A stretch of 40,777 nt of DNA from an uncultured Gammaproteobacteria bacterium (GTDB lineage: Bacteria > Pseudomonadota > Gammaproteobacteria > Arenicellales > JAANXG01). Positions 8,429-40,580 of the stretch are shown here, piece after piece. Made by a program: the position numbers and the translations under genes. A model generated the notes under the pieces. It worked only from the letters and a program-made list of their open reading frames with translations, was not told where the DNA came from and made no database searches. The stretch covers positions 1-40,777 of the forward strand of contig CAMYNX010000003.1 of assembly GCA_947259875.1 (NCBI GenBank). The letters run 5' to 3'. How positions within the stretch are numbered: position 1 is the first letter of the stretch; every line of letters begins with the position of its first letter.

Positions 8429-8609
8429 GACTAAGCCATACTGCGTTACTGAATGTGCGCGAACAAACAGCACACGCGGCTGTGACCTTTCATTAAACGC
8501 TATACAAATGGTTTAGAGCAATCTCCCACGCGCGCTTTTTCCCGTGGTGATTGCCTGACTCCGCCCATGTTACTATGTTGAACGACACTGGATTTGGCAG
8601 GGCAGAACT

Positions 8610-9002
8610 ATGACGCTGATCGAATGGACACCCGAGTTTTCGCTTGGTGTGGCGGAATTGGACAATGAGCATCGCGACATGATCCAAATCGTTAACCGGC
8701 TGTACCAACAAGTACAATCAGGCCGCTATCAAACGACTGTTATCGATGCCCTCGAAGAGTTGCATACCAGCGCCGCCAGTCACTTCGCGCACGAAGAGGA
8801 GATGATGCGAACCCATAATTATGCGGCATACGAAGAACACCACGCGGACCATCGCCGGTTACTCGCCGAGGTCACCGCTATGATCCACCAATGTCAGGAC
8901 GGGGTCGACGACGATGAAGTCGTGGCCAAATGGCTGTATGAGTGGTTCTGCAACCATTTCAAGACCCACGATGCACCGCTACATCAACTGATCTGTGCCT
9001 AG
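8610..9002 (+). CDS. Bacteriohemerythrin, paralogue
   Basis: The 130-residue protein keeps the full ligand set: DNEHRDM, HFAHEEEM, EEHHADH and HFKTHD. It has the same MTLIEWTPEFSLGV opening as the copy at 6207-6614 and aligns with it without large gaps. The C-terminus is five residues shorter. Its stop codon TAG (9000-9002) is part of a CTAG tetranucleotide that is also the left flank of a MITE-like element. A palindrome within that element probably terminates its transcript. The function is presumably O2 binding or sensing; how the two copies differ cannot be read from sequence. Confidence 0.93.
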   Translation: MTLIEWTPEFSLGVAELDNEHRDMIQIVNRLYQQVQSGRYQTTVIDALEELHTSAASHFAHEEEMMRTHNYAAYEEHHADHRRLLAEVTAMIHQCQDGVDDDEVVAKWLYEWFCNHFKTHDAPLHQLICA

Positions 9003-9292
9003 CCCGCATATTGCACCGAGGCGCCCCGCGACTATTTATGGTACCCAGTTAAGAACTCCGCAGTGTCACTTCGATGAAATAGCAACATACGAGCCTCCAG
9101 TTTGTTTAGGGAGAATAGTCGCGGGACTATCCCGGCCCTGACTGGGTCTCGCACATCTGCGCTTGGCCTGCACTCAACAGAAAATAGGGGTCGGAGTCAC
9201 AGACTCCGGCCCCTATTTTTCATCGCCCCAAGCGCGGCGCTCGGCCGCACGAGTCCTGCGTCAGTATCCGAGATCCTGGTGAGAAATACGGG
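9003..9292 (-). mobile_element. MITE-like element copy H, flanked by CTAG on both sides
   Basis: The ends are CCCGCATATTGCACCGAGG (from 9003) and, in inverse orientation, CCTGGTGAGAAATACGGG (to 9292). CTAG lies at 8999-9002 and again at 9293-9296, consistent with a 4-bp target duplication. The body matches the reverse complement of copy B (21746-22011), including the nested arms CCCGCGACTATT / AATAGTCGCGGG. The central hairpin is replaced by the P2 palindrome at 9181-9219. It is non-coding, about 290 bp. This is the best-preserved evidence for target choice. It fills the spacer between hemerythrin and the CAP-domain gene. Confidence 0.75.
9181..9219 (+). terminator. P2 palindrome (copy 2), strong terminator-like hairpin
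   Basis: AAAATAGGGG-TCGGAGTC, a 3-nt loop (ACA), then GACTCCGG-CCCCTATTTT gives an 18-bp stem with one wobble pair. Five Ts (9216-9220) end it in the plus direction, and the A-run makes it work on the minus strand too. It lies inside element copy H, 180 bp after the hemerythrin stop, and could also serve the minus-strand CAP gene from the other side. Confidence 0.65.
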
Positions 9293-9377
9293 CTAGGCGA
9301 AGTCAGGGAAAAGCGCAATAGAATCAGGCGAGACGATTTTTTCGGAACGACAACCGGTAGCCTGGGTGTGCCACCGG

Positions 9378-10466
9378 TTACGGGGTTTCGCTCATCACTG
9401 TGAATCGTGCACCCTGTTGGACTTTGAAGCCAGGTCCCAATGCGATCCTGGGGGCATGAAAGGTGACGTCACCGGGCGCGTTGATTTCAAAGCCGGACGC
9501 AGCCGCAATCAGCGAGCACGCCTGGAAAGTTTGCTGATAATCAATGGTCTGTATGGGAAGATCAAGTTGATCGTCGGGCACAGCGCACGGCAGGGTGAGT
9601 GCGATCGTATCGCTCGCCGCACGTACCGTATTGTCAATGTTTCGTAGCTCAACCTCCACCTGCTTCACACCGTTACCGGAACTGAGTTCCCATGATTTAT
9701 TGGGTGAGTAAGATTCCCACAACGACCAAGTGCCGTTCTCATTCTTAAACCGCATGTCCGCAGCCCATCCTGCGCCGTACACATAAAGATCGATACCTTG
9801 CGTATCGGTCTCTGCAGCTTCACGATTGATCACCACTGGGTACACGTCGTTTCGCCGGCCAAAATTCTGGGTCCAATAGTGATAGAAAGGGCCGTCGATA
9901 CCGTCGGCCACGCAGTCGTCGTTAGCATCGATTCGCACGTTAGAGAAATCAGCGGGCTGGTGCGTGTGACCGATCCCGATCTCCCGGTAACTCCCTGACA
10001 GTATATTGTTCCGGTGACCAGAACTGCTCATCCACGCGTTCATCACAAAGTCCGGTGTAGTATAGCCGGCGGCGATGTTTTCAGCCGCGCTGTTCCACAC
10101 GTAACCCGCAGCCGTTATTCGATCAAATGCTGACGTCACCAGATCCAGGTCGCAGTGCGCAGAGAAGTCTCTGCTGGCCATGTTGTCGCTATGTGTGCCC
10201 GCGGAACTATCGAGCAGGACGTTGCGTTTCAGCGGGGCGAGCCCCTGGGCGTCGCGCTCTTGGTTGACCCGCTCGACGACCTGCTGCTCGAAATCGGCTG
10301 TTGTGGGCGCGGTCAGTGTTTGCGCGGTGGGTGCACCCAAGTCATCCGGCTGTGGGGTGATGCCTGCGGGCCCCGGATTCGGGGCCTCGGGTCCCAACTG
10401 GGCAAAACTGACGAGATTCCACATCAGTGTTGCGAGGGCGGTGATTGAGACTGGATAATGGTGCAC
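9378..10466 (-). CDS. Secreted CAP (SCP/PR1-like) domain protein
   Basis: The 362-residue protein has an N-terminal hydrophobic signal-like stretch (ITALATLMWNLVSFA), a Pro-rich linker, then a CAP domain at about residues 55-215: NQERDAQGLAPL, THSDNMASRDFSAHCD, AAENIAAGY, MSSSGHRNNIL and WTQNFG. CAP proteins are extracellular; bacterial functions are mostly unknown. After a middle region of unclear fold (WSLWESYSPNKSWEL), the last 50 residues form a small module ending PRIALGPGFKVQQGARF that recurs in the next protein (10900-12678). The two are on the same strand and may share a surface or sorting signal. No operon link is clear, since about 430 bp including a pseudogene separates them. Confidence 0.85.
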   Translation of the reverse strand: MHHYPVSITALATLMWNLVSFAQLGPEAPNPGPAGITPQPDDLGAPTAQTLTAPTTADFEQQVVERVNQERDAQGLAPLKRNVLLDSSAGTHSDNMASRDFSAHCDLDLVTSAFDRITAAGYVWNSAAENIAAGYTTPDFVMNAWMSSSGHRNNILSGSYREIGIGHTHQPADFSNVRIDANDDCVADGIDGPFYHYWTQNFGRRNDVYPVVINREAAETDTQGIDLYVYGAGWAADMRFKNENGTWSLWESYSPNKSWELSSGNGVKQVEVELRNIDNTVRAASDTIALTLPCAVPDDQLDLPIQTIDYQQTFQACSLIAAASGFEINAPGDVTFHAPRIALGPGFKVQQGARFTVMSETP

Positions 10467-26697: not shown

Positions 26698-27758
26698 CGT
26701 TCTCCGTCCAAGGACACCTGCACCCGGCGGGCGCCCTCATCGACAACCTCGCCAAACCGCTGCGGCCAGCGTTCGCGTAACCAGCCGACGATCCCTAGCG
26801 GGAAGAACACCACTACGACAACGATCATAAGACCCAGCGCGACGCGCTGCCAGCCAAACAGATAAGTCCAGAAGATTTCCTGGGTGATGTGAAAAACCGT
26901 GGCGCCGATGACCGGCCCCCACAGCGTGCCCTTTCCGCCGAGGATCGCCATCAGCACCATCCACACCCCGAAGGTGGGCCCGGCGAACGCCACATCCGTC
27001 GGGTCGATAAAGATCACCAGATTGCCGAAGGCGCCCCCGGTCAAAGCCAGAAAAAACCCCGACACGCACCAGGCGACGGTTTTGTAACGGGTGGCATGCA
27101 AGCCCAAGGCATCTGCCTTGTCCTCGTCATCGCGGATTGCGTTGATTGCCAATCCAAATTGGCCGGCGTATAAACGCTTGAGCACCGCAAACGCGATCAC
27201 CGCCAACACCAAGAACAAATAATAGAAAAACGGGCCGCGCTCGCCGAGGGCGTCGGGTAATAACGGTGTCACCAGGCCCGAACCAGCGCCAATGTAATCC
27301 CAACCGCTGGCCAGTTCGCCGGCGGCGATCCCCAGACCCAGCGTGCAGATCGCGAAATAATGCCCGCGTAGCCCGAGAATACCGGAACCCAACACCGCGG
27401 CGATCACCACTGCCAATAACGCGCCGCTACCCATGCCCAGACCTAACCCGGTCAAATACTCCACTGGGGTCAACACCGCCTGGTCGCCGCCGGCGACGTT
27501 GGCGTATTCTTCGACCGTAAAGTACAGGTCCCGCTGCACTACCGCGGTGGCATACATGCCGACACCGAAAAAGACGATATTGCCGAACGAGTTATAGCCC
27601 ATCTGCCCGCCCAACACGTCCCAGGTCATGGCAAACAGAATCATGACCCATAGAAACGCGAATTGGATGAGATATGGTTGCAACACGGGGACCAGAGGAA
27701 TAAGGAACGCCGCGATCACCAACGCAACATACAGCGCCATTTTGCCGGGACCGTTCAT
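26694..27758 (-). CDS. livM: Branched-chain amino acid ABC transporter permease LivM
   Basis: The 354-residue protein has about nine hydrophobic segments. The LivM signatures are WDVLGGQMGYNSFGN-like (residues about 45-60), the cytoplasmic loop FGLAINAIRDDEDKADALGLH (21 residues; key residues AIRDDEDKA), and GGKGTLWGPVIGA near the C-terminus. It overlaps livG and livH by 4 bp each. The inner membrane permease partners LivH. Confidence 0.94.
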   Translation of the reverse strand: MNGPGKMALYVALVIAAFLIPLVPVLQPYLIQFAFLWVMILFAMTWDVLGGQMGYNSFGNIVFFGVGMYATAVVQRDLYFTVEEYANVAGGDQAVLTPVEYLTGLGLGMGSGALLAVVIAAVLGSGILGLRGHYFAICTLGLGIAAGELASGWDYIGAGSGLVTPLLPDALGERGPFFYYLFLVLAVIAFAVLKRLYAGQFGLAINAIRDDEDKADALGLHATRYKTVAWCVSGFFLALTGGAFGNLVIFIDPTDVAFAGPTFGVWMVLMAILGGKGTLWGPVIGATVFHITQEIFWTYLFGWQRVALGLMIVVVVVFFPLGIVGWLRERWPQRFGEVVDEGARRVQVSLDGER

Positions 27759-28654
27759 TTCAGGACCTGGCGTTGCCGCTTGAGAAACATGTTACGTACC
27801 AGCAGGATGACCACCAACAGCCCAAACACGAACCCAATCTGGAACTCGGCGCCAAGCAGGAAGGCGGCGAACTGCTCCGCCGCGCCCAGTCCCAAGGCCG
27901 CGGCGACGACCGCGGCGATGTTACCCAACCCCGCTACCACCACGATCATAAACGAGCGAATGGTATAGGCGAGACCGATGAAGGGTTGGATCACCCAGGT
28001 CATCACCACCAGCGCCCCGGCGGCGCCGCAGAGGGCGGCGTTCAACGCGAATGTCATCGCGTAGACCCGATCGGTGTTGATGCCCATCAGGCGCGCCGCC
28101 CGGGCATTCTGCGCGGTAGCCCGAATCGCCTGCCCCATGCGCGATTTTTTGAAAAACAACACCAAGGCCACGCCGACGACAACCACGACGGCAAAGGCCA
28201 CGAGCTTGATCTGACTCACAGTCACTTGACTATCGAACAGGAATATCTGTCCCAGGCCGGACTCGGCGGACTGGATGTCGGCGCCGAAGATCTGGTCCAT
28301 CAATTGCTGCAACAGGATGGAAATGCCAAACGTCGCCAGTATCGAGATAAATAGATCGCGATCGACGACCCGGAATATCACCGCCCGGTAGATGGCCCAA
28401 CCGACGATGAATAACACCAGCGCCGCCACCGGGACACCGAACAACGGATGAATCCCGGCGTTGTAAAGCGTCAGAGTGACATAGCCACCGAGAATGACGT
28501 AGTCGCCCTGGGAGATGTTGATGATGTTCATCACCCCCCATAGCAACGCCATGCCGTAGGCGGCTAAGGCGAAGATTGACCCCACCAACAAGCCGTCGAT
28601 CAACAACTGCACCGAAAAGATCGGTGCTTGCAGCAGGATCTCAAGGTTGCCCAT
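27755..28654 (-). CDS. livH: Branched-chain amino acid ABC transporter permease LivH
   Basis: The 299-residue protein has eight or so helices: LIDGLLVGSIFALAAYGMAL and INISQGDYVILGGYV at the N-terminus, and the coupling loop GQAIRATAQNARAARLMGIN in the middle. This is a typical LivH. It follows livK by 56 bp and overlaps livM by 4 bp. The substrate range depends on the binding protein. Confidence 0.94.
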   Translation of the reverse strand: MGNLEILLQAPIFSVQLLIDGLLVGSIFALAAYGMALLWGVMNIINISQGDYVILGGYVTLTLYNAGIHPLFGVPVAALVLFIVGWAIYRAVIFRVVDRDLFISILATFGISILLQQLMDQIFGADIQSAESGLGQIFLFDSQVTVSQIKLVAFAVVVVVGVALVLFFKKSRMGQAIRATAQNARAARLMGINTDRVYAMTFALNAALCGAAGALVVMTWVIQPFIGLAYTIRSFMIVVVAGLGNIAAVVAAALGLGAAEQFAAFLLGAEFQIGFVFGLLVVILLVRNMFLKRQRQVLK

Positions 28655-28710
28655 TACGAATCGCCCGCCCCGGCAACGCCAAGGGCGGACTCCTATCTAG
28701 CACCTGTAAA

Positions 28711-29952
28711 TTACCGTTCGCTCCACTTGGGACGCGGATGAATCAGCTTGTCCGACGCCCACTTGGTCGGCGCGACCACCTTGTATTGGCCACCCTGGAT
28801 CTGACGCAGCACCATCGGCTTGGCAATGTTCTTGCCGGTCTCATCGAACTTGATGTTGCCGTAGAAGGTCTGCATCTCGGTTGCCGACAGCGCATCGCGC
28901 AGCTTGCCGGTATCGAAGGAGTTGGCCCGCTGCAGGGCATCGACCCACACCAATACCGAGGCGGTGGATTCGGCGGCCTGGTACGGTGGCACGTAGCCGT
29001 ATTCCTTCTCGAACAGCTTGGCGTAATCGCTGGCCGAGCCAAAGTACTCATCCTTGTAGGTCATGGTCTCGGCCCACTGGGTAGCGCACAATGTGTACTC
29101 AGCGCCAGGGCCGAACTTACCGACCACGTCCGCCGCCTCACAGTGGGTGATGGCAAACATCGGCACATCGACCTTTTGCTCCATCATCTGGCGCACCGCG
29201 GTGGCGGCGCCTTTGGAGTGGCCGGAGACGACCAAGATATCCGGTTTCAATGCCCTGATCTTGGTCAGCGTGACCGTCATGTCGTTCAGCTCTTTGGGCA
29301 GCTTGTCGTCGATCACCACGTTCATGCTGTGGGTCTGCGCGTCGTCCAACACGCCGGCGCGGATATCCTGAGAGAACGGGTCGTTCTCCATCGCCAGCGC
29401 TAACTTGAGTTCGGCCGGGTCTTTGCCCGCCGCCAACGCCTCTTGGGCGGCCAGATTGATGGCCTCGGCCAGATACTGCTCCGACGTCGACAGCACCGCA
29501 AACAGATATTTGTAGCCCTTGTTGAAGAGCGACCGGGATGCCCCATTGCCCTCGACCATCGGAATCTTGTACTTCTCGGTTACCGGTGCCATCGCCTTGG
29601 TCAACCCCGAGCTGTACGGGCCGAGCATGAACTGCACGCCGTCCTGCTTGATTAGGCGCTCGACCAGCTGGGCGCCGCGGGCGGGGGTGGACTCGTCGTC
29701 GTAGTAAATGACCTTGAGCTTGTAGCTCTTGCCGCCCACTTTGATGCCACCCATTTCGTTGACTTTCTTGACCGCCAGCTCATAGCCGTTCTTGGTGTGC
29801 TTGCCGTTGGTTTTATACTTCCCTGTAAACGACAGGGCGGCACCAAGAATAATGGTATCGCCGTCCACCTTTGCTTGCGCGGCACCGGCCAATGACACGG
29901 CGAGGGTCGCGGCGGAAAGGGCGGCGAAGACGGGTTTGAGATATTGAAACAT
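28711..29952 (-). CDS. livK: Branched-chain amino acid-type ABC transporter substrate-binding protein
   Basis: The 413-residue protein has a clear signal peptide (FAALSAATLAVSLAGAAQA, cleavage near residue 27) and a type I periplasmic binding fold: TIILGAALSFTGKYK, the VQFMLGPYSSGLTKAM and KYKIPMVEGNGASRSLF segments, and AAESTASVLVWVDAL. It delivers the ligand to LivHMGF; the residues do not let me tell leucine-type from other amides. AGGAGG lies just before the ATG. MITE-like copy F lies about 120 bp upstream of the ATG. Confidence 0.92.
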   Translation of the reverse strand: MFQYLKPVFAALSAATLAVSLAGAAQAKVDGDTIILGAALSFTGKYKTNGKHTKNGYELAVKKVNEMGGIKVGGKSYKLKVIYYDDESTPARGAQLVERLIKQDGVQFMLGPYSSGLTKAMAPVTEKYKIPMVEGNGASRSLFNKGYKYLFAVLSTSEQYLAEAINLAAQEALAAGKDPAELKLALAMENDPFSQDIRAGVLDDAQTHSMNVVIDDKLPKELNDMTVTLTKIRALKPDILVVSGHSKGAATAVRQMMEQKVDVPMFAITHCEAADVVGKFGPGAEYTLCATQWAETMTYKDEYFGSASDYAKLFEKEYGYVPPYQAAESTASVLVWVDALQRANSFDTGKLRDALSATEMQTFYGNIKFDETGKNIAKPMVLRQIQGGQYKVVAPTKWASDKLIHPRPKWSER

Positions 29953-30074
29953 GATTTCCTCCTTAGTCCTCTGGTTTTAATCTCTCTCTGTAACCCCCTC
30001 CTTAGCTTAGAGCAATCCTGGTCGCTACTTTATCGCCGACCGCCCGGTAAGCCAAGCGGTTTCACCACTCCTAG

Positions 30075-30352
30075 CCTGCCTATTGCCGCAGTATCCGGGA
30101 AGCTGGCGCGGGACCGGGGCGGCTGGATCCCCCTGCTGTGCGGGGACAAGCGCCGCACTGGAGCGAAAGTCATAGCCGTAGCTATGGCTAGAGTGAAGTC
30201 CAAGTTCAGGCGTACCTGGACCAGTCAGAACGCGGATAGGAAACCGGCCGTGTACAAAGTGTACCCAAGACAAATGTGCTTGATTCGATGTTTATACATT
30301 GTTTATCAATCAGTTAACTCAAGGCTGGTGGCCGACGGACGCAATATGCGGG
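30075..30352 (+). mobile_element. MITE-like element copy F upstream of livK
   Basis: CTAG at 30071-30074 precedes a diverged left end (CCTGCCTATTGCCGCAGTATCCGG). The right end is GACGCAATATGCGGG with flank TTAA. Interior order: GAAGCTGGCG, GACCGGGGCGGCTGGA, an inserted P1 palindrome (30129-30150), CGCCGCACTGGAG, hairpin AGTCATAGC-CGTA-GCTATGGCT, then GGATAG and a right arm with ACAAAGTGTACCC. It is non-coding and the oldest-looking full copy. It lies between the divergent livK and acyltransferase genes. Confidence 0.65.
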
Positions 30353-30575
30353 TTAAGCAACGCGTAGCACGGATTTCCGGGTCCCACACTAGGTTGGAGC
30401 CCATCAAGGCCAACTCGCAATATTTTTCGCGAGACAGACCCAATCCGGCTGCGGTGTTTATTGGTCGCTCGCGAAGCACCGGTTTGGTGTGCGCGCCCAG
30501 TGCCCGGGGCCACGCACGCGACCCGCAACCGAAGTCCTGCAAAGCCGGAGGGACCTCACCCACCACCCAGCCCAA
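30306..30575 (-). pseudogene. Possible gene remnant truncated by MITE copy F
   Basis: A minus-strand frame reads GWVVGEVPPALQDFGCGSRAW and later GLSREKYCELALMGSNLVWD. These have protein-like composition, but I cannot assign a family. Its last 20 or so codons run into the element terminus, so any original C-terminus is lost. There is no clear ribosome site. It may be chance. Confidence 0.25.
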
Positions 30576-30685
30576 CCCGTCACAGAATTTAATCGCGGAA
30601 GTGACGACGCGCTGGGCTTTGCTTCATCCACAACAAACCCAACCGTGAAGATACGATAATCAACTGAATCGTTTATGCTAAGGCC

Positions 30686-31543
30686 ATGCTCGCCGCGACG
30701 TTGACACTGCTATCCCGATTGCCGCTTTCTGCATTGTATGGTTTTTCGCCGTTAATTGAATTCGTGCTTTATCGCTTCGTTCCATCACGACGTGCGATTG
30801 TGTTGGGAAACTTAAAACGAGCGTTTCCAGAACGAGAAACCCATGCGGTTGATAGCTTGGCTCGCCAGATCTACCGCAATTACGCGGACGTTGCTGTGGA
30901 AATGATTAAGTCACTCACTATTACCGCATCCGATCTGGACCAACGGATAACAATTTCCGGTGGCGAGACGATCAATCACTATTTGACACAAGACCAACCG
31001 TTGCTGGTGACCGTCGCCCACCAATGCAATATCGAATGGTTGCTGCTGGCGATGAATCTGAAGTTCGACTATCCACTGGAGGCCATCTATCGGCCCGTTA
31101 GCAACCGCTCACTGGAGACGCTGCTGTCGAGAATCTATCGACGCTTTGGCGGCAAGCTGATCCCCGACCGCAGCGTGGTGTCCGAGGTCATGCAACGCCG
31201 TGGCGAACCACGTCTGGTCTCCATCGCTCCGGATCAGGCCCCCAATTGGCAAGATGAGACCTACTGGACCACATTCCTGAATCAGGAAACCGGCTTCTTT
31301 CAAGCACCGGAGATTCTGGCCAAATTTGCAAACTATCCGGTGGTGTTTGTCGGCATGTCACGCATCAAACGCGGTTTCTACCAGGCCGATATTCACTTGC
31401 TGGCTGAACCGCCTTATGCAAAAGACGATCATGCGATTATCGAGGGCTATGTGCATGCCGTAGAGGCGCAGATCAACGCACATCCTGCCGACTGGTTTTG
31501 GTTTCACAACCGATGGAAGCGCAAACGTTCGCTATACGGCTGA
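30686..31543 (+). CDS. LpxL/HtrB-like lysophospholipid acyltransferase family protein
   Basis: The 285-residue protein has an N-terminal hydrophobic anchor (LAATLTLLSRLPLSALYGF) followed by the LpxL-family core: VLGNLKRAFPE, YRNYADVAVEMIKS, and the catalytic HX4E box VAHQCNIEWLL (H112, E117). AIYRPVSNRSLETLL, SIAPDQAPNW and PADWFWFHNRWKRKR follow at the end. LpxL-type enzymes transfer an acyl chain from acyl-ACP to lipid A precursors or other lipids at the inner membrane. It is convergent with, and overlaps by 12 bp, the acyl-AMP ligase-ACP gene, which makes a specialised acyl donor plausible. It could equally be the housekeeping lipid A late acyltransferase. Confidence 0.85.
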   Translation: MLAATLTLLSRLPLSALYGFSPLIEFVLYRFVPSRRAIVLGNLKRAFPERETHAVDSLARQIYRNYADVAVEMIKSLTITASDLDQRITISGGETINHYLTQDQPLLVTVAHQCNIEWLLLAMNLKFDYPLEAIYRPVSNRSLETLLSRIYRRFGGKLIPDRSVVSEVMQRRGEPRLVSIAPDQAPNWQDETYWTTFLNQETGFFQAPEILAKFANYPVVFVGMSRIKRGFYQADIHLLAEPPYAKDDHAIIEGYVHAVEAQINAHPADWFWFHNRWKRKRSLYG

Positions 31544-33493
31544 CACCCTTTGCTCTAGAAATTCCGCCAGTTCCGCCAATGTCGGAAAGTCAAACAAGTC
31601 CATCAATTCGACACGCCCCGGAAACGCATTTTCGATCTGTTCGTGAATTTCGATGAGTTTCAACGAACTGGCGCCGGTCTCAAAAAAGTTGTCGTGCCGG
31701 CCCAGCCGGATATCACCAAGCGCTTGATCGCAGATATCCCTGAGTCGGCGTTCAATATTGGTTACCGGTTCGTCACGCTCAACCGATGCCGCAAGTTGCT
31801 GCAACATCGCCCGATCTTCGTCAAATTCGCCGGCCAAATACGCTTGTACCAAGGCGAAACGCTGCAGTTTACCGCTGGTAGTCTTCAACATTCGAGACAC
31901 CGGTACCACCTCCGACACCTCGGCACCGGTGTGCTCGTTGATATATCCGGTCACATCACGCGCCAAGGTTACGAAATCACCGAGATCACCCCGGTGTAAA
32001 ACAAAAACCAGCACCTTGTCGGTGTCCGAACCCTCATCACGATAACTCCCGACCGCCACTTTACCCAACTGCAGCCGCCCCGACTGCAGCGCGACCGCCT
32101 CCAAGTCATGGGCGTAGAAGTTCTGACCATTGACAAACAGCACGTCCTTCTCGCGACCGGTGATGAACAATTCACCGTCTTCCAAAAACCCCAAATCGCC
32201 GGTGTCCAGCCAACCCTCCCCATCGATGGCCGCTTCGGTGGCGCCGGGATCGAGATAATAACCGGGGGTGACATTGGGTCCATTGATGAGGATTCGTCCG
32301 ATGGTGCCGTCTGGGAGCGGTCTTTGATCATTGCCCACTATCCGCATCCGGCACCTACCGATGGCGTGCCCCACACTCACACAGCGCATCGCTTGGGCAT
32401 CGCCGGGTGCGGAGCGCACAGCATCGCCCATACCCGCCGCCCCGCGATCGATGTCTTGCCACCGCAAGTCTCGGTCAAGATGAGGAAATGACACGGCAAG
32501 ACTCGCCTCGGCCAGCCCATACACCGGAAACATGGCTTTCCGACGCAGTCCATATGGCTCGAGGGCGCGCAAAAACTCCTCGCATAAGGATGCCGAAATC
32601 GGTTCAGCACCGTTAAAAATCAACCGCACCTGGGACAAATCGACATCGGCGCCGTCGAATTGACGCTTGTTGAACAACCGCAAGAAATGGCGGTAACCGA
32701 AATTGGGAGAGCACAAGATATTGGCGCGCGCCGAACTCGCCACCTGCAGCCAGCTCAATGGTCGGCGAATGAATACCTCGGTATCCATCAAATAGTGATG
32801 CATTTGGCTGACCAGCATATTCAAATGAAACCCGATCAGCCCCATATCGTGGGTCAGTGGCATCCAACTCAGGCTGATATCGTCGGGCGTGAATCGGGCC
32901 GCTTGAACGATGTCGCCGATGTTGGCGAGCAAATTACCATGGGTGAGCACGATTCCCTTTGGTTCGCTGGTTGATCCAGAGGAATATTGGATAAAGGCCA
33001 CGTCGTCACGGTTCACATTCGCGATGTCACCGGGCTGCGACGTATCGTGAATGTTGTCGCTGAGCATACACCGCGATTGCATCTCATCAGAGACATCCGC
33101 AATGCCCCGGCTGTGGGCGAAATCATGCAAGCGGTGCCAAATTGGGCGATCGGTATACACAAAAGCATTGGGGAGCTTCTCGTAAACACGAAACAGCTTG
33201 AATCGCTGCTCGTCGGACACACCGACAGCAATCGGAACCGGAATGATGCCTCCGTACAGGCAGGCCCAGAATACATCTATAAACCGCTCATTGTTATTCA
33301 GCAGTACGATCAATTGATCTCCCCGCCTTATCCCCCGATCCTGCAGATAGCGAAGAATGCCGATCGCCCTTAGGTACAGATCAGAGAGCAAAACCGACCG
33401 GCTGCGATCCTGCGTTGCTATGTACGTAATGCGTCGATCTGAGTTGCGGAGTGTAGTTAACGCTTCAGTTAACGTCTGATATTCCATATTCAC
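31532..33493 (-). CDS. Fatty acyl-AMP ligase fused to a C-terminal acyl carrier protein
   Basis: The 653-residue protein begins with an adenylate-forming domain (about 1-560): AMP-binding motif FIQYSSGSTSEPKGIVLTHG, NFGYRHFLRLFNK, YGLAEASLAVSFP, and the GWLDTGDLGFLEDGELFITG region with GREKDVLFVNGQNFYAHDLE. These are hallmarks of FAAL enzymes, which make acyl-AMP and load an ACP rather than CoA. The last 80 residues are an ACP: DNFFETGASSLKLIEIHEQI, with the phosphopantetheine serine at S610 (a GASSL variant of GxDSL). The start is GTG at 33493, overlapping the P450 stop (GTGA); ATG at 33487 is an alternative. The fusion implies the activated fatty acid stays bound to this protein for a further step. 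Confidence 0.9.
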   Translation of the reverse strand: MNMEYQTLTEALTTLRNSDRRITYIATQDRSRSVLLSDLYLRAIGILRYLQDRGIRRGDQLIVLLNNNERFIDVFWACLYGGIIPVPIAVGVSDEQRFKLFRVYEKLPNAFVYTDRPIWHRLHDFAHSRGIADVSDEMQSRCMLSDNIHDTSQPGDIANVNRDDVAFIQYSSGSTSEPKGIVLTHGNLLANIGDIVQAARFTPDDISLSWMPLTHDMGLIGFHLNMLVSQMHHYLMDTEVFIRRPLSWLQVASSARANILCSPNFGYRHFLRLFNKRQFDGADVDLSQVRLIFNGAEPISASLCEEFLRALEPYGLRRKAMFPVYGLAEASLAVSFPHLDRDLRWQDIDRGAAGMGDAVRSAPGDAQAMRCVSVGHAIGRCRMRIVGNDQRPLPDGTIGRILINGPNVTPGYYLDPGATEAAIDGEGWLDTGDLGFLEDGELFITGREKDVLFVNGQNFYAHDLEAVALQSGRLQLGKVAVGSYRDEGSDTDKVLVFVLHRGDLGDFVTLARDVTGYINEHTGAEVSEVVPVSRMLKTTSGKLQRFALVQAYLAGEFDEDRAMLQQLAASVERDEPVTNIERRLRDICDQALGDIRLGRHDNFFETGASSLKLIEIHEQIENAFPGRVELMDLFDFPTLAELAEFLEQRVSAV

Positions 33494-34797
33494 CGTAACA
33501 CCGATTGAAACATGAGGTTATGCGCCGTTCGCAAGTTGACGCGGGGTTCCATTTCCACCGGTGATTTTCCTATATAGCGGAGCGCCAGCTTACGAATAAC
33601 CACGGCAACGTGAATCTGCATTTCGGCCAGCGCGAAGGCTTCCCCCACGCAGCGTCGAGGTCCGGCAACGAATGGCAGATACACGAACCGGTAACGCTCC
33701 TTGGCATCTGCAGCAGCGAATCGCTGTGGCCGGAATTGCTCCGGCTGCTGCCAATAACGGGGATGACGGTGCAGCAGGTACGGGCTGATCAAGATATCGG
33801 TACCCGGTGCGATGGGGAAACCACCAATGACATCGTCCCCAATCGCCCGCCGCGTAATCAGCCAGCCGGGGGGATACAGCCGCAGGGTCTCGTCGACGAC
33901 ATACCGCACGAGGTCTAAAGAAAGTATCGAATCTACCATCATCGGCGAGGATAACCGGTCCACCGCAGCCTGTAGCTCTAACTCTATTTCCGGATGCTGG
34001 CTGACCATATACCAGAGCCAGTTCAATCCGCTGGCGCTGGTTTCGTGGCCAGCGACGATCAAGGTCATGACTTCGTCGATCAATTCCTTATCTTGCATCG
34101 GTTCGCCGGTGCGCTTGTCGCGCGCCGACATCAGCATCGACAATAGATCCGGACGGTCAATGCCTGTGCTGCGCCGTTGCTCGACGATCGCAAGGATCGG
34201 CTTTTTTAAGTTTCGAAACTGCGCGGCGAATCTAAGATCGCGCGCTGATTCTTTCGCCACTAAAAGGAATGGATTTTCGCCCATTGTCGACGCCAGGGCG
34301 TTCAAATCTTCACTAAAAATGGCGCGTAAAATAATCTCCAGCGTCACCTCGCTGACGTCTTCCGTTACATCTACCGGTTTACCGCTGGTGGCGTTTTCCA
34401 TCCAGCGATCGACCAGCGCCTGGTTGCACTCAATCATCATCTCATAAAAGCGCCGGATCGCGCGTTTATGGAACAAAGGTTGAATCATGAGCCGCTGGCG
34501 CCGCCAGAAATCACCTTCACTGACCATTATCCCGTTTCCGAGCAATACCTTGACTCGATTAATCCCAACACCTTTGGTGTAATTACGGTGATTCGTCACC
34601 AATACGTGTTTTACCCAATCGGGATGACTGATCACATAGGTATCTGCTCCTCTCCCGGGAGAATAAATCCGAAAAATGTCGCCATAGGATTTGAAATACG
34701 CCACCAGCTTTGCGAGTGAATCATTGGTATCGCCGACGTCAAATTGTTCCGGCGGCCCGGGTGGGAGCGGCATTGCGTTTTGTTCTTGTTGATTCAT
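33490..34797 (-). CDS. Cytochrome P450
   Basis: From ATG 34797 (MNQQEQNAMPLPPGPP) the protein has 435 residues; an upstream in-frame ATG at 34836 adds 13 unlikely residues. The P450 landmarks are the I-helix AGHETSASGLNW, K-helix ETLRLYPPGW, the meander PEQFRPQRF, and the heme loop FVAGPRRCVG with the axial Cys at 383. No membrane anchor is present, so it is soluble and needs ferredoxin-type electron partners. It is translationally coupled to the FAAL-ACP gene, pointing to an ACP-bound fatty acyl chain as substrate (compare BioI, which acts on acyl-ACP). Hydroxylation, desaturation or cleavage cannot be distinguished. Confidence 0.92.
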   Translation of the reverse strand: MNQQEQNAMPLPPGPPEQFDVGDTNDSLAKLVAYFKSYGDIFRIYSPGRGADTYVISHPDWVKHVLVTNHRNYTKGVGINRVKVLLGNGIMVSEGDFWRRQRLMIQPLFHKRAIRRFYEMMIECNQALVDRWMENATSGKPVDVTEDVSEVTLEIILRAIFSEDLNALASTMGENPFLLVAKESARDLRFAAQFRNLKKPILAIVEQRRSTGIDRPDLLSMLMSARDKRTGEPMQDKELIDEVMTLIVAGHETSASGLNWLWYMVSQHPEIELELQAAVDRLSSPMMVDSILSLDLVRYVVDETLRLYPPGWLITRRAIGDDVIGGFPIAPGTDILISPYLLHRHPRYWQQPEQFRPQRFAAADAKERYRFVYLPFVAGPRRCVGEAFALAEMQIHVAVVIRKLALRYIGKSPVEMEPRVNLRTAHNLMFQSVLR

Positions 34798-34945
34798 CGT
34801 TGACTCAAGGCATTTGCCATCCCGGGCCGCGCACAACCCGAAATAATAACCCGACAGTCAGGGAGTACCGCGTTAGCAGTTCACCGGTTCCAGAACACGA
34901 TGTACCGATAACATAATGTTGAGGTGAACTTGGTGTCAGCCCTAA

Positions 34946-36955
34946 TTAGACAGCGCGACTTACTACCTGTGTGGATATCATATCAGGTATGGCTGCCGAG
35001 GGTACCGGCGGCGAGAACAGAAAACCTTGCAATTCGTAACAGTCCTGCGAGCGCAGAAACTCCACCTGACCACTTTCCTCGACTCCTTCGGCAACCAATT
35101 TGATGTTGAGACTATGCGCCAACGCCGCGATCGTTTTGATTATCGCCATATCTTTCTCATTCGTTGCCAGATCCTTTACAAAAGTTCGGTCGATCTTTAG
35201 AAAGTCGAGCGGTAACAATTTGAGATAGTTCAAGGATGAGTAGCCCGATCCAAAGTCATCGATGGAAATGGCCACACCGATTGCTTTGAGATCATCCATG
35301 ACCTTAACGGCGGTGTCGATGTTTTCGATGAGTACGCTCTCGGTCAGTTCTAGTTCTAAATATTGCGCGTCCAGTCCGGATTGGTCCAAGGCATCTTGGA
35401 CCATGTCAACAAACGATCTAACCCTGAATTGTCCTGACGAAATGTTTACCGACACCCGAACTCTGGACATCCCGGCATCGTGCCACTTTTTGGTCTGCTG
35501 GCACGCGGTACGCAGGACCCATTCCCCGACTGAGTTGATCAGCCCCATCTGTTCGAGCAACGGGATGAAACTGTTCGGCGGTACCAAGCCCCGCTCGGCA
35601 TGCGCCCAGCGCAGTAACGCCTCAACTGCGACAATCTCCTCCGACTTGGTTTCGACCCGCGGCTGGTAATACAGAACAAACTCATCATTTTGGAGCGCCT
35701 GTTTTAGCCCTGTCTCGAACTCGAGCCGGTCAAGCGCATGTTGCTTCATCGCCGGCGAGTAATACCGGTACTGATTACGGCCTTCTTGTTTGGCGAGATG
35801 CATGGCGCTGTCCGAATTTTTCACCAGCATTTCGGCGGATAAATCATCCTGTGGAAAGATGGAAATACCGATACTCACAGTGACCGTGAGGTCTTGATCG
35901 TTGACTTTTATCGGTTCGGCCATCGATTCGATGACACGCGACGCCAGGCGCGACACATCTTCGGTATTACGCAGCGGCTCTATGATTATGGCAAACTGAT
36001 CGCTTCCGGTCCGAAATACCATGTCGCTCTCACGAATACACACCAGCATGCGCTTGGCGCTCGTTCGCAGCACTTGATCCCCCGCCGATTGCCCAAGGCT
36101 GTCATTGACAAGTTTGAAGCGGTCGAGATCAAACTGAAGCAGGCCCAGCATACGGCCCGCTCGGCGCGCGCGTTTGAGGGCCTCTTCCAGACGCTCTGCA
36201 AAACTAATCCGGTTATGAAGACCGGTGAGCGCGTCATAATGGGCTTGATAGTGAATCTTTGCTTCGTCGTCCAACCGTTGTTTATCCTGGGCCTGAATAG
36301 TTTTATCCGCTCGCCGTACAATTACTAACAGGAACAGATAACACAGTGACAGACTACCCACTACCCAGGCAATGATTTCCCACTGGTGTTTTTTTATATC
36401 GACGACCAGATCGGTGACGTCGGAGTACACCTCAAATACTGCCTCCACCGGCGCATTCTCACTGATACGGACCGGTATATAGGAAGAGACCAAATTACGG
36501 TCGACGATCACGCCTTCAAACGTGTTGAAACGATCTCTAAACGTGATCTTGCCGGTGGGCACACCCTTGTTTGCACTGATAAATCCTGGATTATGGCTTT
36601 TGTCCTGTCCAATCTGAGCAGGGTCAGTGGAGAACACCGTGATACCGGTGAGATCGTAGATCTTGATTTTTACCACGCTCGATCGCGCGATGTATCGCGC
36701 GACGTCTTGTTGTAGCCGGTGGATCACCTCATGGTGCTGCAGTTCAGCCTTGGAAAACTGCGAGGCGTCGGCGAGAAACAAGGCGTACCGCGGCCAGATC
36801 GTATTCGAGAAGACCTGCGTCAGGGTGGCGTGGGACTTTGTCTCGTGTTCGACCAGCACATGCCACACGAGATTTCGATACACAAACAGCAGGACAGTGA
36901 TGGCAACGATGCCAACGATGCTGGTTATCAAGCCATAGCGGTGCGACCTAAACAT
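34946..36955 (-). CDS. Membrane sensor with degenerate GGDEF and intact EAL domain (c-di-GMP phosphodiesterase)
   Basis: From ATG 36955 (AGAGGG just upstream) the protein has 669 residues: a membrane helix (about 8-26), a periplasmic sensor region to about 195, a second helix (WEIIAWVVGSLSLCYLFLLV), then GGDEF and EAL. In the GGDEF domain the active motif is GSDQF (317-321), so cyclase activity is unlikely. The preceding RESD keeps the RxxD inhibitory site. The EAL motif is intact (445-447), with NISSGQF, ELTES, DDFGSGYSSL, KIDRTFVKDL and AEGVE, so phosphodiesterase activity is expected. The frame opens at 37021, but the ribosome site favours 36955. It is divergent from another GGDEF gene. 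Confidence 0.9.
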   Translation of the reverse strand: MFRSHRYGLITSIVGIVAITVLLFVYRNLVWHVLVEHETKSHATLTQVFSNTIWPRYALFLADASQFSKAELQHHEVIHRLQQDVARYIARSSVVKIKIYDLTGITVFSTDPAQIGQDKSHNPGFISANKGVPTGKITFRDRFNTFEGVIVDRNLVSSYIPVRISENAPVEAVFEVYSDVTDLVVDIKKHQWEIIAWVVGSLSLCYLFLLVIVRRADKTIQAQDKQRLDDEAKIHYQAHYDALTGLHNRISFAERLEEALKRARRAGRMLGLLQFDLDRFKLVNDSLGQSAGDQVLRTSAKRMLVCIRESDMVFRTGSDQFAIIIEPLRNTEDVSRLASRVIESMAEPIKVNDQDLTVTVSIGISIFPQDDLSAEMLVKNSDSAMHLAKQEGRNQYRYYSPAMKQHALDRLEFETGLKQALQNDEFVLYYQPRVETKSEEIVAVEALLRWAHAERGLVPPNSFIPLLEQMGLINSVGEWVLRTACQQTKKWHDAGMSRVRVSVNISSGQFRVRSFVDMVQDALDQSGLDAQYLELELTESVLIENIDTAVKVMDDLKAIGVAISIDDFGSGYSSLNYLKLLPLDFLKIDRTFVKDLATNEKDMAIIKTIAALAHSLNIKLVAEGVEESGQVEFLRSQDCYELQGFLFSPPVPSAAIPDMISTQVVSRAV

Positions 36956-37422
36956 CGACCCTCTCGTGTGATCTCTCGCGGCTGAGCACGGCTGGCCTTC
37001 GAGCCGCGCCCATGTAGCCACATCGATGCTCAGGGTTGGCGGGCGTTCGTTTGCCCTGGGTTTATTGAAAAAGAAGTTGTTAAACCAAGCACTTATAGCT
37101 CGCTAGACTCACAATCCCGGCACCGGAAAAATTTTCTCATTCCGCTTATTAAGTTTAGGTGACATAAGCATTTTTTCCAGCACCATGCTTGGTTTTAGCA
37201 GCCGGGAAAGTGCCCCGGGCAGTCAACGACTCTGCTCCGGGTTGTTGTCGATTCTTATCCCGTCGGCGGAAGCCTGGGTCCTGGTCCGCTATCTTAGGCG
37301 CCACGAATGGGCGAATAACCCCTATTGAGGAGAGCATTTTTCGCCGCATCCGAAACCGTCATGCGTGTAGTCTAAAATGTTAAGAGTGGGATTAAACTTT
37401 AACTGAACGTAATAGCTTCATT
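36956..37422. other. Divergent spacer between EAL and GGDEF genes
   Basis: In these 467 bp I see no gene. Weak features only: AAGCAT/ATGCTT inverted words around 37167-37191, and a GC-rich block at about 37200-37235. Promoters for both genes must lie here, but none is convincing. Confidence 0.4.
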
Positions 37423-38460
37423 TTGAATAAGCTCAATATCTGGGAAGGACTCATTCAAGCGGAACGCAGACTCGATCCCGCAGCGACTCGGCAAGAGATG
37501 GTCAACGTCAGTGTGGCTGCGTATACGGGGGGTGCGATTACCGGCTTTCTGGCGCTGCTGTTATCCGGCTGGCCGTTCACCAGCTTTCTGAGTGCACTGG
37601 CGATCATCGCGATGGTTGTCGTGACGACCCTGTTATTGCGCACGTCCCGCTGGCAGGTTCCGATTTGGGTATTGGTTGCGCAAGCGCCCTACGCCACGAT
37701 CTTGCTTTCGATCGCCGTTTGGATCGACGTGCATGCCGCCCCCGGTACGCTAGCATTATTCTATGTGCTCATTTCGCTGTATGCCTTCTACTTCCTGAAA
37801 ACATGGGTAGCCAGTGGCTTTTTGCTGTTCGCTGCAATCCTGTATGCGTCTGCACTGATAGTGAAAGGCGTCCCAGACTGGTTGTCACAGTCGATATTGA
37901 TGCTGGGCAGTTGTATCACCGTGAGCATCGTGGTGACATTATTGGTCAAACGTGTTCATCGGTTGGCGACTGAAGACAGTTTGACCGGCTTGGCCAACCG
38001 GCGACTTTGGGAGGCACTGATCAGACATGAGGTTGCCAGCGCCAATAGATATAAACAAGACCTGTCCATCGCACTGATTGACCTTGACGGTTTTAAACGC
38101 ATCAATGACGTTCATGGACACATACACGGTGATGAAATCCTGCAGAAGGTCTCCGATGCGCTTCGCAAAGTGTGTCGCGAGGGTGACACGCCTGCGCGTT
38201 GGGGTGGCGACGAGTTTGGTCTGTTGTTATTAAAGTGTGACACGCGTGATGCACGCAGCATCGTAGACCGTCTGCGCGGCCAACTTCGAAACGTTATCCG
38301 AATCTCTGCCGGTGTCGCGACTTGGAAACCCGACAAGACCGCAGATGACATGATTCGTGAAGCGGACCGGAGTTTGTACGAATCTAAATCAGAGCAGATA
38401 CAAATCCGAGCTGCTAATACGCACACTGGCAGCGTCCCACGCCTCCAGACTCAGGACTGA
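37423..38460 (+). CDS. Membrane diguanylate cyclase
   Basis: The 345-residue protein has five to six hydrophobic helices (about residues 28-178) forming an integral membrane sensor, then a GGDEF domain: DSLTGLANRRLWEAL, DLDGFKRINDVHGH, the active motif GGDEF at 261-265 and an inhibitory RxxD (REGD) five residues before it. It should synthesise c-di-GMP with product inhibition. The start is TTG at 37423 without a clear ribosome site; ATG at 37498 (MVNVSV) is possible and would keep all helices. It is divergent from the EAL protein and may oppose it. Confidence 0.88.
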   Translation: MNKLNIWEGLIQAERRLDPAATRQEMVNVSVAAYTGGAITGFLALLLSGWPFTSFLSALAIIAMVVVTTLLLRTSRWQVPIWVLVAQAPYATILLSIAVWIDVHAAPGTLALFYVLISLYAFYFLKTWVASGFLLFAAILYASALIVKGVPDWLSQSILMLGSCITVSIVVTLLVKRVHRLATEDSLTGLANRRLWEALIRHEVASANRYKQDLSIALIDLDGFKRINDVHGHIHGDEILQKVSDALRKVCREGDTPARWGGDEFGLLLLKCDTRDARSIVDRLRGQLRNVIRISAGVATWKPDKTADDMIREADRSLYESKSEQIQIRAANTHTGSVPRLQTQD

Positions 38461-38536
38461 CCCCGAGCTATCTATCCGGACCCGCCGCCTATCGGAGACG
38501 AATCCGTACACGGACCTTCGTAAGGCGGCCCATTCG

Positions 38537-39427
38537 TTATCGTTCGTCTGGGGGTAAGACCACGACGTCCGCGTATTCATGCCTTTTCGTAATCAGGCTG
38601 CTATGTAAAAACACGTCCAGCGCAACGTCATACTGAGACCGACTGATACGCACATCCGGATTCCAACAACCCAGCCGTTGATAAAACTCGATCGCTGCGG
38701 CAATCGCTTCGATGTCAATGCCTTTGAAAAAATCGGCTTCCGACGCTGCGATCTCGGCAGCCGATGCGCGGTTCACGTAGTCCCGTGCCTGACGATAAGC
38801 GGTCATGAATGCCAGTGCCATATCGGTTTCCAACCATTCCCGGGTAGCCACCAAGCTGCTGAACGCGACCGGACCGATCGCTTCACCCACCGCGGCAACA
38901 ATATGGGCCGCGCCGTCTTTTTCCATCTGCTGCGGCGCCGGGCCTTGCAGATGCACATAGTCACCCTGTCCGTCGTAAAATGCGCGTTCGATCTCGTGCA
39001 CGTCTCCAGCATCAATGGCGTTGATCGCAGCGTAATCCACACCCTTCTTGTGCGCCGCATATTTGAACATTGCCAACGGCTGCCCGAAATGATCGACCAG
39101 CACGTCGCGCCCACGTAGCGTATCCCAAGTAAAATCCGGCTCCGGTTCACGGCCGGCGATGAAGAAACCATCCCGCTCGTTGATCTGGGCGAAATGCATC
39201 ACCGTATTCGGCTCGCCCTTTTCCATCGGTCCCCAGCTCGCGGCAACCGAAGACTGGCCGACATGAACCGAACCGTCAGCGAGTCCCTCGGCAACCGACT
39301 TTTGCGGCGTCATGATCGAATAAGTCGGCTCCAATCCCTGCTGTTGCAAGAACCCGGCGCTGATCGCAGAGATCAATGGGCTATAGAACGCCGAATGCCG
39401 GGAAACCATTATGTGTATCTGCGCCAA
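38537..39427 (-). CDS. NMT1/THI5-like (SsuA/NrtA-type) substrate-binding protein without signal peptide
   Basis: The 296-residue protein opens directly with the first strand of the fold (IHIMVSRHSAFYSPLISAI), then GLADGSVHVGQSSVAASW, HFAQINERDGFFIAG, LRGRDVLVDHFGQPLAMFKYA and YVHLQGPAPQQMEKDG: a type II binding fold of the NMT1/THI5 type. The start TTG at 39427 is supported by GGGAGG 6 bp upstream; ATG at 39409 is an alternative. Neither start leaves a signal peptide, and no ABC permease or ATPase is nearby. It therefore looks cytoplasmic and is probably a sensor, an enzyme or a thiamin-pyrimidine-type protein rather than a transporter part. The ligand is unknown. Confidence 0.75.
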   Translation of the reverse strand: MAQIHIMVSRHSAFYSPLISAISAGFLQQQGLEPTYSIMTPQKSVAEGLADGSVHVGQSSVAASWGPMEKGEPNTVMHFAQINERDGFFIAGREPEPDFTWDTLRGRDVLVDHFGQPLAMFKYAAHKKGVDYAAINAIDAGDVHEIERAFYDGQGDYVHLQGPAPQQMEKDGAAHIVAAVGEAIGPVAFSSLVATREWLETDMALAFMTAYRQARDYVNRASAAEIAASEADFFKGIDIEAIAAAIEFYQRLGCWNPDVRISRSQYDVALDVFLHSSLITKRHEYADVVVLPPDER

Positions 39428-39602
39428 GATGTCCTCCCGTTTCGATCAACTCTATTCGAGATGTATGTTATTTCTTTGTGATGTGTGTTCCGGACACGGC
39501 AAGCACATCATAAAGCACCTGGTCGGATTATATCAGCAGCCCGTGGTTTGGTTCCCAAACCCGCGGTATTCCTGCGCTGAAGAACAGCGCCACTGTGGGA
39601 TA

Positions 39603-39662
39603 ATGAATCAATATTATTACATTGACGCGGCGGGCAATGGTGAACGGACCTATCCGGGTTAG
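39603..39662 (+). pseudogene. Very short frame resembling the start of a GYF_2-domain protein
   Basis: ATG at 39603 gives MNQYYYIDAAGNGERTYPG and then a stop. The YYYIDAAGN opening is like bacterial GYF_2 domains (xWYYIDxxGxxxGP), which are normally longer, so this may be a truncated relic in the spacer before the reductase gene. It is too short to be sure. Confidence 0.25.
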
Positions 39663-39695
39663 AATCGCAGCGACCCACAATCAACATCGATAAAC

Positions 39696-40580
39696 ATGAA
39701 CAACTCATCTGACGAAACCATTGGCTTTATCGGCCTGGGGCTGATGGGCCGTCCCATGGCCACCCACCTGCACCAATCCGGATACCCGCTGGTCATTTAC
39801 AATCGGAGTAAACCCGTGGTGGCAGAGTTGTGCGCCGTTGGCATGACTGCCACCGAGTCTCCACGGGACGCCGCCCGACAGTCCACGATCATTATCGTTA
39901 TGGTGTCCGATACCGCGGCAACAGAGAAAGTGCTGCTGGGCGATGAGGGCGTGGCGCAGGGGGTGCAGTCCGGAACGCTGGTCATCGATATGGGTACCAC
40001 AGCGGTGACGGCGACGCGCCGTTTCGCGTACGAGATTGAAAAACGCGGGGGCGATTATGTCGACGCCCCGGTGTCCGGCGGCCAGGTCGGTGCCCAACAG
40101 GCGGCCCTCACCATCATGGCCGGTGGCAGCGAACCGAGCTTTGCACGGGCCAAACCGGTGTTCGAAACGCTCGGTCGTCATGTCACCCGGGTCGGTGACA
40201 TCGGCGCTGGGCAGGTGGCGAAAGCCGCCAATCAAATTATCGTCGGACTGACCATCGGTGCGGTCGCCGAGGCGCTGACGTTGGCGAAGAAGGCGGGGGT
40301 TGATCCAGCCAAGGTCCGCGCCGCCTTTGAGGGCGGTTTTGCCTGGTCACGTATCATGGAACTGCACGGTCAACGAATGATCGATGGTAAGTTTACTCCT
40401 GGCGCCAAAGCCGTGACGCAACGCAAGGATCTCGCACAAGCATTGGTATTAGCGGAACAAATCGGCATCGATCTTCCGGCGACCCGTTTGAACCGGGACC
40501 TGTATGATCAACTCATTGAGCAAGGCGGCGGTGAACTCGACCACAGCGCGTTGGTCAAGGTCATCGATACGGAAATCTAG
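39696..40580 (+). CDS. 2-hydroxy-3-oxopropionate reductase / 3-hydroxyisobutyrate dehydrogenase family protein
   Basis: The 294-residue beta-hydroxyacid dehydrogenase has NAD(P)-loop IGFIGLGLMGRPMATHL (about 10-26), substrate motif DAPVSGGQVGAQQAALTIMAGG (22 residues; core PVSGGQVGA), and the catalytic-Lys region GQVAKAANQIIVG. The C-terminus (MIDGKFTPGAKAVTQRKDL) fits the tartronate-semialdehyde reductase (GarR/GlxR) branch better than MmsB. It would convert tartronate semialdehyde to glycerate, a step in the glycerate pathway of glyoxylate use, consistent with glcDEF 20 kb away. The exact substrate is not proven. Confidence 0.85.
   Translation: MNNSSDETIGFIGLGLMGRPMATHLHQSGYPLVIYNRSKPVVAELCAVGMTATESPRDAARQSTIIIVMVSDTAATEKVLLGDEGVAQGVQSGTLVIDMGTTAVTATRRFAYEIEKRGGDYVDAPVSGGQVGAQQAALTIMAGGSEPSFARAKPVFETLGRHVTRVGDIGAGQVAKAANQIIVGLTIGAVAEALTLAKKAGVDPAKVRAAFEGGFAWSRIMELHGQRMIDGKFTPGAKAVTQRKDLAQALVLAEQIGIDLPATRLNRDLYDQLIEQGGGELDHSALVKVIDTEI

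Follow-up and report, generated by a model that had tools for sequence, protein, structure and literature searches.

A candidate fatty-acid loading, oxidation and transfer cassette, with lipid A as its likeliest acceptor, in an uncultured gammaproteobacterium and its family

BioI is a cytochrome P450 that works on an ACP-bound fatty acid and cleaves such chains for biotin synthesis. We analysed a 40,777-nucleotide stretch of DNA (hereafter the window; contig C3 in a draft genome of 4.59 Mb, 91% complete) in which a P450 is likewise proposed to act on an ACP-bound chain; no biotin gene was seen among the classified neighbours of this P450. Here the P450 gene adjoins genes for a fatty acyl-AMP ligase fused to an acyl carrier protein (FAAL-ACP) and for an acyltransferase. 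Among the closest described relatives of such an arrangement is the AcpXL-LpxXL system of Rhizobiales, in which a dedicated carrier feeds a dedicated acyltransferase of lipid A, LpxXL putting an unusual (omega-1)-hydroxylated very-long chain on the molecule (PMC5613085). That system, however, relies on FabF/FabZ-type genes to build its chain on a free ACP, whereas the ligase of the window would activate a ready fatty acid on its fused ACP with a P450 attached, and no fabF/fabZ-type genes are present among the classified genes flanking the locus (27755-40580).

Two further comparisons frame the locus. In AasR/AcpR-SPT sphingolipid synthesis, a specialised acyl-ACP synthetase and a specialised ACP similarly direct fatty acid to a single lipid enzyme, but there the ACP is separate, the recipient is serine palmitoyltransferase, and no P450 is mentioned (PMC9386255). 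The late acyltransferases LpxL, LpxM and LpxJ are matched in the window by a PF03279 domain with an HX4E motif and in most relatives' clusters by DUF374 proteins, the class that includes the LpxJ-type acyltransferases proven to act on lipid A (PMC6148475); LpxL and LpxM differ from the window's acyltransferase in that the latter forms a separate clade, scores below the curated models and is tied to its own acyl-loading unit. A sequence-only reading of the window had held that the trio is not known as a described system, and we found no description of it in the open-access literature searched.

Gene layout and proposed chemistry

All three open reading frames lie where the sequence-only reading had placed them, with matching domains. 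The acyltransferase gene (30686..31543, plus strand, 285 aa) is an open reading frame whose product matches PF03279 over its full length (123 bits against a cut-off of 22.3) and keeps the HX4E catalytic signature (H112-QCNI-E117, 31019..31036, plus strand), which lines up with the same motif in A. baumannii LpxM. Calling the enzyme LpxL-like thus holds for superfamily and motif and fails for membership of the canonical LpxL/LpxM group: both curated family cut-offs are missed (102.6 against 248 and 81.8 against 297.8), and in our tree the canonical gammaproteobacterial LpxL/LpxM group (support 100/98) excludes it. An alphaproteobacterial protein of 30% identity (L082:3925-4755) groups with its clade, and the 12-kb contig of that relative carries neither a FAAL nor a P450 gene.

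Convergent with the acyltransferase gene is the FAAL-ACP gene (31532..33487, minus strand), the two overlapping stop to stop by exactly 12 bp (31532..31543) as had been reported; this overlap is found in 8 of 13 members of the family. Its product, 651 aa from a conserved ATG or 653 aa from the GTG at 33493, is, as first read, a ligase with its own carrier: it combines an AMP-binding domain (PF00501, 170 bits) with a C-terminal ACP domain (PF00550, 42.7 bits; 31556..31747, minus strand) that retains the phosphopantetheine attachment residue Ser610 within the conserved GASSL signature (codon 31664..31666, minus strand). Among solved structures the ligase is closest to FAALs (3pbk, 1.4e-66, against about 1e-25 for 4-coumarate-CoA ligases), with McyG as the best match, and it scores below the curated threshold for FAAL model PRK09192 (354 against 600). 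In one relative, G001, a frameshift near codon 72 splits the FAAL-ACP gene (L060:8332-8538 and 8519-10264), which could be genuine decay or an assembly error.

The third gene encodes a cytochrome P450 of 435 aa (33490..34797, minus strand; PF00067, 247 bits) with intact signatures, namely the heme-ligand Cys383 in FVAGPRRCVG (codon 33649..33651, minus strand), AGHET in the I-helix and ExxR as ETLR; no redox partner was seen adjoining it. Its stop codon (TGA, 33490-33492) lies within the junction with the ligase gene (33487..33493, minus strand), where two FAAL starts are available: the GTG at 33493, which would give a 4-bp overlap, and the ATG at 33487, which would leave a gap of 2 nt after the stop. 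The GTGA coupling proposed earlier stands as a tight junction whichever start is used, but its GTG start is the less likely of the two, because almost every relative starts at the position of this ATG, also where no P450 lies upstream. G006 has a true ATGA overlap at this junction, with a start two codons upstream.

What might these three enzymes do together? We propose that the FAAL domain would adenylate a free fatty acid and load the acyl group onto the phosphopantetheine arm of the ACP domain in the same protein, that the P450 would oxidise the chain, most simply by hydroxylation while the chain sits on the fused ACP, and that the acyltransferase would take the acyl group from this ACP and esterify it to a lipid, most likely lipid A, in which it would be a secondary chain. 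We give about 0.45 probability to the locus being such a loading-oxidation-transfer cassette with lipid A as its likeliest acceptor, the reactions, their order and the acceptor being what we infer. The parts of this reading differ in strength: FAAL-ACP is very probably a dedicated acyl supply to the acyltransferase, the P450 probably acts on the chain that FAAL-ACP loads, and the case for lipid A as the acceptor is evenly balanced.

Distribution of the three genes

The genomes compared are draft metagenome-assembled genomes (MAGs), so that any one absence counts weakly; the named relatives within the window's family are environmental MAGs, one of them bearing the Arenicellales label. The acyltransferase and FAAL-ACP genes are adjacent and convergent in every one of the 13 family genomes. 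They stay paired in G009 despite 717 bp between them and in G008 and G010-G012 without any overlap, and the outer flanking genes differ from genus to genus, so the adjacency exceeds a general conservation of gene order. An intact P450 gene is present in four of the 13 (G000, G002, G004 and G006). Eight of the other nine show none, and G005 keeps a stub directly before FAAL-ACP (L026:9915-10247), an in-frame open reading frame of 110 codons in which the first ~30 and last ~80 residues are joined, so that the start and the heme-loop end are kept and the middle, with I-helix and ExxR, is gone. Because the family P450s and the family FAALs each form one clade, inside a wider P450-FAAL group, these trees are most simply read as a P450 present in the family ancestor and then lost several times. 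The sequence-only reading had seen its weak point in the acyltransferase, as a possibly unrelated housekeeping gene; the reverse is found, with the acyltransferase constant and the P450 the partner that is lost.

Outside the family, searching 369 genomes from across the class turned up close relatives of the P450 (E below 1e-128) in 19 genomes; one of these, G409, was left out of the readable loci, its 3.5-kb contig ending inside the P450, and the contig of G348 stops inside the FAAL. In all 18 readable loci, which come from 12 other gammaproteobacterial families, the P450 gene lies directly before FAAL-ACP on the same strand with a lipid acyltransferase gene beside the two, of the DUF374 (LpxJ) family in 16 and LpxL-like in two. 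In these two (G116 and G254) the acyltransferase gene converges on FAAL-ACP, as it does in the window, and its product belongs to the window's clade (96/88), outside canonical LpxL/LpxM; both genomes also own a canonical LpxL, so the clade is no replacement there. The cluster DUF374 proteins form a group apart from stand-alone DUF374 proteins (99/99) and retain WH, SxSx(D/E)G and DG(P/S)xGP, motifs that appear to match residues LpxJ needs. A phosphopantetheinyl transferase (PPTase) gene adjoins nine of the P450/FAAL-ACP loci, that of G409 included. Around 29 canonical LpxL-type genes, by comparison, no FAAL or P450 gene occurs within 1.5 kb.

Co-occurrence is thus far beyond chance, both for the acyltransferase and FAAL-ACP within the family and for the P450 and FAAL-ACP outside it. 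The trio proposed from the window alone passes the co-occurrence check set for it: the acyltransferase/FAAL-ACP pairing holds throughout the family, and the P450, often lost within the family, accompanies FAAL-ACP in every readable locus outside it. The pathway idea is strengthened by comparative genomics, all readable outside loci having a lipid acyltransferase from one of two families beside P450-FAAL-ACP, and we regard it as partly supported, with oxidation on the carrier, transfer and acceptor as its predicted parts. In most of the other families sampled, the unit would work with an acyltransferase of the DUF374/LpxJ type.

The P450/FAAL-ACP pair also occurs beyond the class. The conjugative IncP plasmid pDCB2 of Diaphorobacter sp. 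JS3051 carries a PPTase-P450-FAAL-ACP set in what resembles a phosphosphingolipid cluster, next to a Tn3 transposase (L218, NZ_CP065408.1 39932-59881). This cluster includes a serine palmitoyltransferase (Spt) scoring above its curated threshold, an ACP, a second FAAL, a CDP-alcohol phosphatidyltransferase and LptF/G-type permeases, and its gene content resembles the Caulobacter sphingolipid cluster. Its position there suggests that the P450/ligase unit may supply oxidised acyl chains more generally, to different lipid enzymes.

Possible acceptors of the acyl chain

Which lipid would receive the chain? We name lipid A mainly because the window's family seems to lack canonical LpxL. LpxC is found in 12 of the 13 genomes and LpxK and KdtA in all (in G000, the genome of the window, the last residues of LpxK are seemingly lost, with two in-frame TGA reported near its end; L136, ~2303-2360), and a PF03279 search of these drafts found no canonical LpxL in any of them. 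The best PF03279 match in every family genome is the window's acyltransferase (110-136 bits); a second match is absent in nine and weak in the other four (<=63 bits). The top score is 186-261 bits in 27 of 28 genomes from the rest of the order. In the window's family, the acyltransferase would appear to have assumed the role of the missing LpxL. The argument from LpxL loss is weakened by incomplete drafts and by a stand-alone DUF374 (LpxJ-like) gene elsewhere in most family genomes, a candidate secondary acylation enzyme, and we have accordingly softened an earlier view of the window's acyltransferase as the sole late-acyltransferase candidate of the family. In four relatives KdtA lies at a distance of 17-25 kb from the pair; we dropped this as evidence of an LPS locus, since the classified intervening genes are not LPS genes.

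Several observations touch on these late acyltransferases. In G006 (L212:7106-10046), G008 (L213:211-3018) and G010 (L214:6531-9493), a DUF374 gene lies divergently next to a second FAAL-like gene (~590-600 aa), and the two may form a parallel pair; the DUF374 gene of the window's own genome has no FAAL-like neighbour (L211). PF03279 matches are very weak in G307, G161 and G397, which carry the DUF374-type cassette, a possible second loss of canonical LpxL.

The same cassette could instead deliver its oxidised chain to another acceptor, a glycolipid, aminolipid or sphingolipid, which we consider unlikely though the best of the alternatives. In its AlphaFold model (mean pLDDT 90), the acyltransferase resembles LpxM (Z 24.4) about as closely as PatA (Z 24.8), a mycobacterial enzyme that acylates phosphatidylinositol mannoside, so the predicted fold alone cannot pick the acceptor; the Spt-containing, Caulobacter-like surroundings of the plasmid set also favour such a lipid. 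On the other hand, a search of the window and of the gammaproteobacterial loci examined found no homologues of the pDCB2 sphingolipid genes, Spt included, both types of acyltransferase beside the pair come from families with proven lipid A members, and canonical LpxL was not found in the window's family, all of which speaks against such an acceptor.

A second alternative, that the P450 and FAAL-ACP make the acyl starter of a secreted lipid or lipopeptide, the acyltransferases being coincidental or serving the same metabolite, seems to us improbable. FAAL-ACP units commonly feed NRPS/PKS, and McyG as best structure match fits this use, as does the G355 locus, which adjoins aryl-polyene-like genes (ketosynthase, GT2 and LpxL-like); but no NRPS/PKS gene is present among the classified neighbours of the window or of the other loci, and the recurrence of lipid acyltransferases in 18 of 18 loci speaks against it. 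The G355 cassette itself (L171:8428-13183) has a DUF374 open reading frame with a C-terminal stretch that looks hotdog-like by eye, followed by the GT2, LpxL-like and ketosynthase genes of the aryl-polyene-like cluster.

Least probable is that the acyltransferase is a housekeeping LpxL using ordinary acyl-ACP beside unrelated FAAL-ACP and P450 genes held in place by the overlap: it is the best LpxL-family gene of the family, and a 12-bp overlap could freeze gene order, but the pair persists across wide spacing or with no overlap, its clade is distinct from canonical LpxL, and that clade recurs beside P450-FAAL-ACP in two other families that keep canonical LpxL.

Possible consequences for lipid A chemistry

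Returning to the cassette with lipid A as its acceptor, a fuller picture can be drawn, which we offer tentatively and hold as more doubtful than the cassette itself: a P450-oxidised, FAAL-ACP-loaded chain may become a secondary chain of lipid A through a dedicated acyltransferase that took the place of LpxL family-wide, and, with LpxJ-type enzymes in place of this acyltransferase elsewhere, oxidised lipid A may be recurrent in Gammaproteobacteria. By gene content, the cassette is present in 13 gammaproteobacterial families (12 sampled and the window's own), and the P450/FAAL-ACP pair also travels on a betaproteobacterial conjugative plasmid. In rhizobia and Legionella, the identity of the enzymes responsible for (omega-1) oxidation of very long lipid A chains is, to our knowledge, not settled, and the cassette provides a concrete candidate type for this chemistry. 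If the reading is true, a membrane lipid would receive an oxidised acyl chain by a route that depends on a P450, and LpxL may be replaced along with its own acyl supply.
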